Part shown: one piece after another, positions 18,240 through 26,030 of the stretch | Layout of the letters: each line of letters starts with the position of its first letter | Position numbering within the stretch: position 1 is the stretch's first letter | Made by a program: the position numbers and the translations under genes | The notes under the pieces: model-generated | Told to the model about the DNA's origin: nothing | The model's input: the letters and a program-made list of their open reading frames with translations, nothing else | Databases searched by the model: none | NCBI GenBank assembly: GCA_010093485.1 | Contig: MU001496.1 | Span: forward strand, 820,252-884,251 | Direction of reading: 5' to 3' | From: Karstenula rhodostoma CBS 690.94 | Lineage: Eukaryota > Ascomycota > Dothideomycetes > Pleosporales > Didymosphaeriaceae | Length of the DNA: 64,000 nt

Positions 18240-18392
18240 GGTGGTATGGTCTAGTGGTATGACGTCGCGTTGTGGAAACACATGATAATTCCGCGCCAGC
18301 CTGGGGTAGGTTGGCCCTCTCTTTGAGAGGATCTTATCAACGCATGCAACAAAGTACTGACTGTAGTAACAGTTCGATTCCCAGTACCGCCA
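18240..18392 (+). tRNA. tRNA-His (GUG), interrupted twice
   Basis: The mature parts are 18240-18275, 18291-18305 and 18373-18392, 71 nt in all. The acceptor stem GGTGGTA pairs with TACCGCC (one G-U) and the discriminator is A. The A box is TGGTCTAGTGG. The anticodon loop TTGTGGC has GTG at 18272-18274. The anticodon stem CGCG/CGCG is paired except for an outer T-C mismatch (18265/18296). The first interruption (18276-18290, 15 nt) sits one base 3' of the anticodon, the canonical eukaryotic tRNA intron position, and its CAC can pair with the anticodon. The second (18306-18372) splits the T-arm at the stem/loop junction. Without it CTGGG-TTCGATT-CCCAG forms perfectly; with it the T-stem cannot form locally. 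Mature sequence resembles yeast tRNA-His. Identity is firm; whether it is expressed and processed is open. Confidence 0.85.
18306..18372 (+). other. 67 nt GT-AG intron-like insertion in the tRNA-His T-arm
   Basis: Starts GTAGGT, carries TACTGAC at 18355-18361 and ends AACAG, with the branch A 12 nt before the last base. These are the donor, branch site and acceptor of a fungal spliceosomal intron, and the length is typical of introns in this window. Excision joins G53 to T54 of the tRNA exactly and recreates the B box GGTTCGATTCC. In the genomic form the B box reads AGTTCGATTCC, one base off. A small hairpin (CCTCT/AGAGG) lies inside. No target duplication is visible. Confidence 0.75.
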
Positions 18393-18409: not shown

Positions 18410-18415
18410 TTTTTT
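18410..18415 (+). terminator. Pol III T-run terminator
   Basis: Six T residues lie 17 nt after the tRNA discriminator base, the expected RNA polymerase III stop. This suggests the tRNA transcription unit is still complete. Confidence 0.7.
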
Positions 18416-22374: not shown

Positions 22375-25300
22375 ATGGAACCGATACCAGGTCCACCAGG
22401 TTTGCCCTTCCTCGGCAACCTGGGAGATATCTCTGCCGAAAATCCTATGCAAAGCTTCGTAAGAAATTCCGACATTTTTGGTTCGTCGTTGACGCCGCTA
22501 TGTCGCATCGTGCGCGAGTACTCATCTTTTTGCAGGACCGATCTGGAAATTTCACTTAGCTGGCGAACGCATCGTCATAGCGTCGCAGGCCCTCATGGAT
22601 GAGGTCAGCGATGAAGAGCGATTTTCTAAGATTATAGCTGCTTCTCTCAATGAGGTCCGGAACGGAACTCATGATGGGCTATTCACGGCCAGAGGACCTG
22701 AGGAGAAGAACTGGGGAATCGCTCACCGAGTCCTCCTCCCTGCGCTTGGTCCCTTAGCGATCAAGAATATGTTCGATGAGATGCACGATATTGCAAGCCA
22801 ACTCGTCATGAAATGGGCGCGCCAGGGACCAGAGCAACTGATACAGGTGACGGATGATTTTACTCGGCTCACGCTTGGTAAGTTCACCAGGTACAGAGTC
22901 GATGTGTTCATATAGTAAAGCGAAAGGGAGACCTCTTATCAACATGCCTAAGACATTAGAGGAGCGTCTTTTATTCGCTTAATCAAGGCATGAGCGAAGT
23001 ATTACCCTTAGCCTTGTAAGCATACACTGACTTGGCACATCCGCGTTTGGCAGACACGATCGCACTTTGTGCTATGGATTACCGCTTCAACTCCTACTAC
23101 TCGGAGCACATGCACCCCTTCATCCAAGCTATGACTGATTTCCTGAAAGTCAGCGGAGATCGTGCTCGTCGCGATCCCATAACCCAAATGTTCTACCGCT
23201 CTGAGACCGCGCAGTATTGGGATAATGTTCAGTTACTTCGGAAAGTAAGCCAAGAAGTCATAAACAAGCGGAAGCAGAACCCGACCCAAAAGAAGGATCT
23301 ACTGAACGGCATGCTGAATGGTGTCGATCCAAAAACGGGCGAAACGATGAACGAAGAAAGCATCATCGATAACATGATTACATTCCTTATAGTACATATC
23401 CCCCGCACCCCCATCCGGTACAAAGTCGTCGCTTTGTACATGAACCCACTTTCGTGACTCAGCTGACTTTGTACCCGCGAGTATAGGCAGGTCATGAAAC
23501 AACATCTGGTCTGCTATCGTTCACCTTCTACTACTTGCTGAAGAGCCCAAGCGCCTATGAGAAAGCGCAAAAAGAGGTCGATGAGGTCATTGGGAAGGAT
23601 CCTATCACAGTCGATCACCTCACAAAACTGCCGTATCTGAATGCTATACTCCGCGAATCGATCCGACTGCAACCTACAGCCCCGGCAATCGGTCTCCAAG
23701 CCAAGGAAGACACAACCTTGGGTGGCAAGTACGAGTGTAAGAAGGGCGTTCCAATTGTTGCAGTTTTACCGAAGGTGCACCGTGATCCCTTGGTGTGGGG
23801 AGAAGACGCTGAGGAGTTCCGCCCAGAGCGAATGTTGGACGAAGAATTCGAGCGCCGCAACAACAAGTTTCCTAATTGCTGGAAGCCTTTTGGAAACGGG
23901 ATGAGAGCATGTATCGGACGGCCCTTCGCATGGCAGGAAGCTCTACTGGTGCTGGCGATACTTCTACAAAACTTCAACTTCACTATGGAAGATCCCTCGT
24001 ACCAACTCGAGATAAAGCAGACACTGACAATCAAGGTAAGATATCTGCCCGTATAAAGACATGCATGCTCATCTGATGGGGTTGTATTCATGCTAACAGA
24101 ATTCACAACAAAGCCGAAAGGTTTCTACATGCGAGCGCATCTGCGCAACCACATGAGTCCTACCACGCTGGAGCGTGCTCTTGCGTCGACGTCGATCAGC
24201 GAGCACGCAGGTGAAAAGAAGGCCCAGGGCACTAAGAAGAAGGCGGCTCAGGGCAAGCCAATAGCCGTGTACTACGGTTCAAATACCGGGACGTGTGAGG
24301 CATTGGCAACCCGCCTTGCTAGCGACGCTCCAAATCATGGATTCAGCGCGGTAGTCGATACGCTGGACGCCGTGAAAGAGAATATGCCAAAAGACAGACC
24401 AATTGCCATCATCACGGCGTCTTACGAAGGGCAACCCGCAGATAACGCCGCTCACTTTGTCACCTGGCTCAATAGCCTGACCGGCTCGGAGCTCACTGAT
24501 GTTCAATACACTGTTTTTGGCTGTGGTCATCGGGATTGGGCGGCCACATTTCACAAGGTGCCGAAAGCCGTAGACAGAACCATTGAAGAGCGCGGCGGAA
24601 CGAGAATTGCTGACATTGGGACCGCCGACACTTCAAAGGGCGATATTTTCACCGAGTTTGAGGCATGGGAAGAGAAGGTCTTCTGGCCAGCCGTAAAAGA
24701 TCGCTACGGCGCCTCAGACTCTTCCGAGTTCACTCCATTCGAGGCCAACCTTGAAATTGAGGTATCCACCCCACGATCATCAATGCTGCGCCAAGACGTC
24801 CGAGAAGCACGAGTTGAGGCGGTAGAAGTGCTCAGTGCACCCAATACACCCGAAAAGCGACACATCGAGATCAGCTTGCCCTCTGGAACGAGCTACTCTG
24901 CAGGAGACTATCTTACTATTTTGCCGATGAACCCTAAAGAGAATATCGCTCGCGCGATGAGATACTTCGGATTGGCATGGGACAGTATGCTGACCATTAC
25001 CTCGTCGAGTCCTACCACACTACTGCCAGTCGGTGTACCTATCTCAGCAACTGACATCTTCGGAACTTATATAGAGCTTAGTCTCCCTGCAACGAAACGC
25101 GACATCACCGCCCTGGTTGAGGTTGCTTCCGACAAAGCCGCAAAGAACGAACTTATACGCCTTGCTACAGACACGTTCAACACTGAGATAACAGAGAAGC
25201 GCGTATCCGTGCTTGATCTGCTTGAACGCTTCCCTTCGGTGTGCTTGCCACTTGGCCCTTTCCTGAAGATGCTGCCTCCTATGCGTGTGCGACAGTATTC

Positions 25301-26030
25301 GATATCATCAAGTCCACTTTGGAATCCTACCAACGTCACTCTTACGTACGGAGTAGTCGACGAGCTCGCGTACAGTGGCCAGGGACGTTTTGTAGGTGTT
25401 GCGTCAAACTACCTCTCCAGCTTAGCTGTGGGGGATAAACTCCATGTCGCAGTGAGGAGCTCGCACCAGGCATTCCATTTGCCAAAGGATGCAAAGAATG
25501 TGCCAGTTATTATGATTGCCGCAGGAACTGGTGAGTCCAATCAAATTACAGTGTGGTGAAGCATATACTAATATCTCTGTCTAGGCCTCGCTCCTTTCAG
25601 AGGTTTTATTCAAGAGCGCGCCGCACAAATTGCCGCCGGTCGCACCCTTGCACCCGCTCTTCTCTTCTATGGCTGTCGCGACCCCAGCAACGATCTTCTC
25701 TATTCCGATCTACTCTCACGCTGGGAGAAGCTTGGCGCTGTCTCATTGCGCTACGCATTCTCTCGTGCTCCCTCCTCCTCGGAAGGCTGCAAGTATGTCC
25801 AGGATCGCATTTACCACGACTGCGAAGAGGTTGTTAAGCTTTTTGATGCTGGGGCAAAACTGTTCGTGTGCGGGAGCTCCGAAGTCGGCAAAGGCGTGAA
25901 GGACGTCTGTCTGAAGATTGCGAGGGAGGAGAGGGTGAAGAAGATGGGCGGAGATGTAGACGAAGGACGGCTGACAGAATGGTTTGAAGGTCTGAGAAAT
26001 GAGAGGTTTGCTACTGACGTTTTCACGTAG
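22375..26030 (+). CDS. CYP505: CYP505-type self-sufficient P450-reductase fusion (P450foxy-like fatty-acid hydroxylase)
   Basis: Catalyses subterminal hydroxylation of fatty acids with NADPH and O2, with haem and reductase domains in one chain. Six exons: 22375-22480, 22536-22877, 23054-23391, 23487-24035, 24114-25530 and 25585-26030, giving 1065 aa, the length expected of P450foxy. Haem domain: proline-rich start [15 protein letters not shown]-helix AGHETTSG (restored across an intron), ESIR for ExxR, PERM, and haem loop [10 protein letters not shown] with the Cys ligand. Linker near 480-510. FMN domain [16 protein letters not shown] domain [13 protein letters not shown]-binding [12 protein letters not shown] (restored across the last intron) and the C-terminus. 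All catalytic motifs are intact. Intron 2 is long (176 nt). A membrane anchor is absent, as in this family. Confidence 0.95.

Follow-up and report, generated by a model that had tools for sequence, protein, structure and literature searches.

The window analyzed in this study, a 64,000-nucleotide stretch of contig MU001496.1 of Karstenula rhodostoma CBS 690.94, contains a tRNA-His(GUG) gene that adjoins the Tim54 gene and is interrupted twice, once in the anticodon loop and once in the T-arm. The neighboring Tim54 protein shows 99% identity, over 97% of the query, to that of Karstenula rhodostoma CBS 690.94, an ascomycete of the Pleosporales (Didymosphaeriaceae). The features of the tRNA gene are given below, numbered from the first letter of the window.

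18240..18392, + strand: tRNA-His(GUG) gene, split into three exons by two introns (sequence; cmscan; aragorn after GT-AG removal)
18240..18275, + strand: exon 1, with acceptor 5′ strand, D-arm, and anticodon GTG (18272-18274), to position 37
18247..18257, + strand: A box, TGGTCTAGTGG (pattern match G000:C5:838498-838508)
18276..18290, + strand: anticodon-loop intron (37/38), 15 nt, ordinary, not GT-AG (sequence; aragorn i(37,15))
18291..18305, + strand: exon 2, with position 38, anticodon stem 3′ strand, variable loop, and T-stem 5′ strand CTGGG
18306..18372, + strand: GT-AG intron of spliceosomal type, 67 nt, between positions 53 and 54
18306..18311, + strand: 5′ splice site GTAGGT of this insert, common to all three tRNA-His copies
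18355..18361, + strand: branch site TACTGAC, branch A at 18360, common to all three copies
18370..18372, + strand: 3′ splice site CAG (insert end AACAG), common to all three copies
18371..18381, + strand: putative B box, AGTTCGATTCC, spanning the 3′ splice junction (from sequence)
18373..18392, + strand: exon 3, with T-loop TTCGATT, T-stem CCCAG, acceptor 3′ strand, and A73
18410..18415, + strand: T6 run, presumed Pol III terminator

Direct reading bears out the first-pass annotation as to the insert at 53/54, with its GTAGGT start, its TACTGAC whose branch A lies 12 nt from the intron end, and its CAG terminus, and likewise as to the anticodon-loop intron, the A box, and the T-run. The acceptor stem, previously described as perfect, consists of six Watson–Crick pairs and one T3.G70 wobble; the cloverleaf, read by eye, also has mismatched pairs at T13.T22 and T27.C43. 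The T-arm junction is fixed only to within 1 nt, since the 5′ exon and the insert both end in G. The terminal AG of the intron and the adjoining TTCGATTCC together preserve 10 of 11 B-box positions when scored against GGTTCGANNCC, which we take to be the B-box consensus.

In its genomic form the gene was missed in the window both by aragorn and by Rfam at the gathering threshold. The tRNA model (RF00005) aligned by cmscan to 18240-18392 scores 26.9 bits, below the gathering score of 29, and leaves the T-loop and the insert, 73 bases together, unmodelled between the two strands of the T-stem. Removal of the GT-AG insert restores a gene that aragorn recognizes only in this spliced form, as tRNA-His(gtg) with a 15-nt intron. 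The joined T-arm is predicted to read CCTGGG followed at the junction by TTCGATTCCC, and the GTG anticodon, A73, and cloverleaf expected of a functional tRNA-His(GUG) are all present after intron removal.

A DNA search of the assembly (44.3 Mb, 29 contigs) recovered three tRNA-His loci only, the two outside the window being as follows.

G000:C9:789849-789999: further tRNA-His gene, insert-bearing
G000:C16:1265737-1265903: further tRNA-His gene, insert-bearing

The insert occupies the same place in all three genes, with lengths of 67, 62, and 55 nt. The tRNA exons are identical (36 bases of exon 1, the last 14 bases of exon 2, and the 20 bases of exon 3), as are GTAGGT, TACTGAC, and AACAG. A CCTCTC/GAGAGG hairpin within the insert was considered as conserved structure and not favored, since by eye its length drops from copy to copy with no compensatory change. 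No intact tRNA-His gene was found in the assembly, either by the whole-assembly DNA search or with a spliced-gene query that did find intact genes of other types; a separate T-arm pattern scan does not bear on this result, since the pattern contained five insert bases and an intact T-arm, differing from it at four places, is undetectable by it. It had been proposed that a recently landed intron killed the gene, with intact copies doing its work elsewhere; zero intact copies, an insert in three of three, and identical exons speak against that proposal. An 18S rRNA pattern (up to three mismatches) had no match in the whole assembly, which is therefore incomplete; its rDNA may be absent, and an intact tRNA-His gene could be missing. 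Within the assembly, this essential tRNA can come only from interrupted genes, given the insert in all three copies found and their identical exons. As histidine codons are, to our knowledge, readable by tRNA-His(GUG) only, some route must remove the insert if no intact gene exists beyond the assembled sequence. The tRNA-His(GUG) described here is presumably expressed, charged, and used in translation, given that no other tRNA-His gene was found.

A hand survey directed at tRNA genes missed or misread by the tRNA model identified GT-AG inserts in at least 16 tRNA genes, at nine sites extending from the acceptor stem to the T-arm. Position numbers reflect our own reading of the cloverleaf.

His(GTG), three copies: insert at 53/54
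Ala(CGC), two copies (L064, L074): insert at 26/27
Gly(GCC), three copies (L072, L075, L168): insert at 60/61
Initiator Met (L063): insert at 38/39
Initiator Met, another copy (L119): insert in the variable loop
Glu(TTC) (L071): insert at 13/14
Arg(CCG) (L073): insert at 3/4 (hand-assigned anticodon; called Gly(ccc) by aragorn)
Pro(AGG), two copies (L102, L104): insert in the D-loop
Pro(TGG) (L103): insert in the D-loop
Val(TAC) (L098): insert after 15

The interrupted genes are 16 of about 90 tRNA genes recovered (54 + 36 more), a rough fraction in which 16 is a lower bound, because the survey was made by hand and several isoacceptors were not recovered, and in which interrupted genes may be over-represented, because they were looked for. 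The total of about 90 omits the doubtful L079, L096, and L101, and includes three Asp-type B-box matches (C6, C12, C13) counted from pattern rows alone; the tRNA pattern scans are represented by about 100 listed among 108, 113, and 108 matches. The hand survey recovered no gene for Phe, elongator Met, Leu(AAG/TAA/CAG), Val(AAC), Ile(TAT), or Thr(CGT), and we do not claim that these are absent. A Leu/Ser A-box pattern occurred at 34 places versus 15 in a backward control; aragorn reported no tRNA in 30 of the loci, and among nine matches listed several fell to the wrong side of it. A query made up of six fungal tRNAs gave no match, an uninformative outcome, and pattern scans of prokaryote genomes and viral contigs yielded no further copies.

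Fourteen of the interrupted genes also contain an anticodon-loop intron, the exceptions being the two initiator Met genes, and a run of at least five T lies within 40 nt downstream of every one of the 16. Given the genomic form, aragorn returns nothing for nine of the 16 and assigns five of the other seven a different identity from that of the spliced form, implying that tRNA finders can miss essential genes. Two of the interrupted Gly(GCC) genes (L072 and L075) are followed by an orphan second tRNA 3′ end, GTTCGATTCCCGGCCGATGCA in one form and degenerate in the other, which is a trace of duplication or recombination. Separately, some tRNA-like elements (L084, L105, and pattern rows at G000:C9:1051740-1054207) contain long inserts close to the anticodon, and several of them share a single cluster; perhaps they are SINE-like or belong to a Pol III gene family.

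Inserts in the 16 genes range from 49 to 67 nt and share a single set of signals. All 16 start with GTNNG, contain CTRAY with its A at a fungal distance of 9–12 nt from the end, and terminate in AG; the 5′ splice sites are GTRNGT-like, with GT and a G at position 5 throughout and a T at position 3 in the Val insert. Shuffles of the same inserts satisfy this description in 5 of 400,000 cases, a figure to be read in the knowledge that the 9–12 nt branch window was chosen after the inserts were seen. With 16 of 16 inserts on one side and 5/400,000 shuffles on the other, a chance origin of the GT-AG pattern was rejected. The two further tRNA-His genes with an insert at the same place and the 13 other tRNA genes with similar inserts likewise indicate more than chance. 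The two Ala(CGC) inserts share only 28 of 56 aligned positions and retain all splice signals.

The ordinary anticodon introns are of a different make. Across 49 genes (from 79 aragorn records, after removal of 18 named interrupted or doubtful loci, intron-less genes, and duplicate sequences) they are confined to 37/38, measure 6–38 nt, and lack the pattern of GT-AG ends with a branch site seen in the inserts. GT...AG ends occur in two of the 49 as annotated, neither with a branch site, and in four of the 49 if shifts of up to 4 nt are allowed. The six Lys(CTT) genes L030-L035 have anticodon introns of 33–34 nt, five with a CTAAT-type motif; these are not GT-AG introns.

Three mRNA introns in the window, placed by homologous proteins, were available for comparison. 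The intron of Tim54 is 52 nt long and conforms fully to the pattern of the tRNA inserts (GTGCGC at the start, CTAAT whose A lies 9 nt from the end, and a terminal AG). Two introns of a cytochrome P450/reductase gene have similar signals at longer spacing, one of 176 nt with GTAAGT and CTGAC at 23 nt and the other of 95 nt with GTACAT and CTGAC at 20 nt, so that likeness to mRNA introns is judged here from a small sample of mixed character. The latter gene, at window positions 22595-25544, encodes a fused cytochrome P450 and NADPH-P450 reductase. A non-coding counterpart is found in the U6 snRNA gene (L100:78-226, G000:C3; 74.8 bits to RF00026), which is interrupted at L100:157-210 by a 54-nt intron of the same make as the tRNA inserts, GTGAGT...TACTAAT...CAG. 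This U6 intron contains a B-box-like GTTCGAGTCC; the U6 intron of fission yeast likewise contains a B box.

Intact paralogues in the same genome serve as natural controls for the junctions. The initiator Met gene L063, minus its GT-AG sequence, is identical at 72 of 72 positions to the intact L020, whose A38 fixes the insertion site at 38/39. Anticodon introns aside, the exons of the three Gly(GCC) genes are identical to those of the intact L055, those of both Pro(AGG) genes to L106, those of Pro(TGG) to L114, and those of Glu(TTC) to L109; the intact Val(TAC) gene L118 is 79% identical to its interrupted counterpart. For three types the assembly yielded interrupted genes and no intact one: His (three interrupted), Ala(CGC) (two), and Arg(CCG) (one). 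Junctions are unambiguous in Gly, the first Met gene, Glu, Arg, and Pro, where the boundaries coincide with GT and AG, and ambiguous by 1–2 nt in His, Ala, Val, and the second Met gene. Removal of the GT-AG sequence leaves a tRNA recognizable by aragorn in all 16 cases. The program often accepts excisions shifted by 3 nt as well, and further shifts for Ala, Glu, Pro, and Val, so that its verdict favors a need for removal without placing the junction precisely; where paralogues exist, these fix it. The availability of intact paralogues for several types also means that the interrupted copies of those types need not be used.

It is very likely, judging from these sequence features, that the tRNA-His gene is a working one whose insert, a U2-type spliceosomal intron, is removed by the spliceosome, that the same is true of at least 16 tRNA genes, and that such introns were gained repeatedly. 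Of the three explanations offered by the first-pass annotation, action of the spliceosome on the transcript is thus the best supported, with its signals present in 16 of 16 inserts. Pol III, whose involvement is suggested by the A and B boxes and the T-runs, would transcribe the whole tRNA-His gene, introns included. The spliceosome would then recognize GTAGGT, the TACTGAC branch site, and CAG in the transcript, release the 67 nt as a lariat, and join T-stem position 53 to T-loop position 54, while the tRNA endonuclease and ligase would remove the separate anticodon-loop intron; the two processing steps are presented here in a presumptive order. For Arg(CCG), in which exon 1 provides only three bases of the mature tRNA, splicing would need to precede leader removal by RNase P. 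New introns have probably entered tRNA genes on several occasions and at different positions, reverse splicing or a comparable copy-in mechanism being the likeliest route, with intron-bearing tRNA genes being duplicated afterwards. The inserts of two initiator Met copies lie at different sites, and another copy has none; together with short junction repeats and the lack of a repeat family, these differing sites fit repeated gain better than an introner family.

Removal of the inserts by the tRNA splicing endonuclease or a relative, with the GT-AG appearance being incidental, would have parallels, as PMC3978253 describes ectopic tRNA introns in Cyanidioschyzon and archaea, the latter represented by Crenarchaeota, that lie at many places in the cloverleaf, sometimes several to a gene, and are cut by a BHB-recognizing endonuclease, and reports many ectopic tRNA introns without a defined BHB in the Guillardia nucleomorph. 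Ordinary introns are moreover abundant in the tRNAs of this genome, and two Gly inserts reach a pairing score of 6 of 7. Nevertheless, in contrast to the BHB introns of Cyanidioschyzon and Crenarchaeota, none of the 16 inserts forms a strict BHB and all have full spliceosomal signals. The h+H pairing scores of the inserts, 2–6 of 7, are near those of random junction pairs; scores of 6 or 7 are reached by 16 of 45 anticodon introns, those under 10 nt having been dropped from this test, which has only moderate power. None of the nine insertion sites falls at 37/38, the nearest being 38/39 in initiator Met, and an endonuclease would leave the GT, branch site, and AG of all 16 inserts unexplained. 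The second endonuclease route raised by the first-pass annotation is accordingly quite improbable. The interrupted copies might instead be dead genes that caught introns while intact genes do the work, as would suit initiator Met, Gly(GCC), Pro(AGG), Pro(TGG), Glu(TTC), and, at 79% identity, Val(TAC), all of which have intact paralogues, as well as the two Gly genes with a second tRNA 3′ end downstream. Set against this are the lack of any intact gene found for His, Ala(CGC), and Arg(CCG), the intact tRNA exons, the retention of splice signals between diverged paralogues, and the T-run following each of the 16 genes; we regard general gene death as highly improbable.

An alternative concerning origin alone, and compatible with spliceosomal removal, is that introner-like mobile elements, which are near-identical and often accompanied by target-site duplications, landed in tRNA genes. 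Such elements have been reported in Dothideomycetes (PMC4457414), and nine separate insertion sites would be in keeping with them; repeated intron gain is common to both. The inserts do not, however, behave as a repeated element. Used as query, the tRNA-His insert of the window matched the three tRNA-His genes only, and a pooled search with 12 introns (11 of the 16 tRNA inserts plus that of U6) matched nothing but tRNA and U6 loci at E values up to 10, so that no copy was detected as an mRNA intron. The 14 places found comprise the 12 introns' own loci, the second Pro(AGG) gene, and a new Gly gene, L168; the search was seed-based and can miss diverged copies. Unrelated sites carry unrelated insert sequences, and in the 15 genes tested (the third Gly gene, L168, lies outside that set) the longest junction repeats are 2–5 nt, which is unlike a target-site duplication. 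The introner suggestion is therefore hardly probable, although old elements could have decayed past recognition.

Nuclear tRNA introns are generally described as lying beside the anticodon and as being cut by a protein endonuclease. Two accounts place them at 37/38 outside certain algae (PMC3978253) and limit eukaryotic tRNA genes to one intron (PMC8450103). No report of spliceosomal introns in nuclear tRNA genes was found among the titles and abstract openings listed in searches of open-access literature. Precedents for spliceosomal introns outside mRNA are lichen nuclear rDNA and U6. As described in PMC8527467, the yeast spliceosome excises a 57-bp spliceosomal intron of Cladonia grayi from rRNA made by Pol I; like the tRNA inserts, the lichen introns are short spliceosomal introns in a non-mRNA gene, but they reside in rRNA transcribed by Pol I, whereas here the host is a folded tRNA of roughly 75 nt with introns partly within the internal promoter. 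The U6 gene of fission yeast contains an mRNA-type intron thought to derive from reverse splicing (PMC10484740), and thus, like the U6 gene of the present genome, offers a spliceosomal intron in a Pol III transcript, as proposed here for tRNA. U6 differs from tRNAs in working in the active site of the spliceosome. That location is also the usual explanation for the U6 intron. As far as could be seen, the extension of spliceosomal introns to tRNA is new.

Taken at face value, the genes suggest that essential tRNAs are produced in this cell with the help of the machinery that splices mRNA. All His decoding, and probably much GCG and CGG decoding, would likely be spliceosome-dependent, and tRNA genes would be repeated landing sites for introns at positions throughout the cloverleaf. 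Should splicing proceed as proposed, a filamentous fungus would have breached the divide between mRNA and tRNA splicing, the supply of an essential tRNA would hinge on the spliceosome, and the spliceosome would be a routine tRNA-maturation enzyme in this organism. A consideration against this is that Pol III tRNA transcripts are uncapped and fold fast. It is interesting to consider how the spliceosome would find such uncapped transcripts, and how splicing would compete with folding and with RNase P, questions for which this genome provides a natural system. The presence of intact and interrupted paralogues together in one genome makes it equally suited to studying the origin of new introns. 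Elsewhere in the window, the gene-bearing part at 49–56% G+C adjoins a 28-kb block (36001-64000) at 16–22% G+C, which perhaps results from repeat-induced point mutation or represents a centromere-like region.
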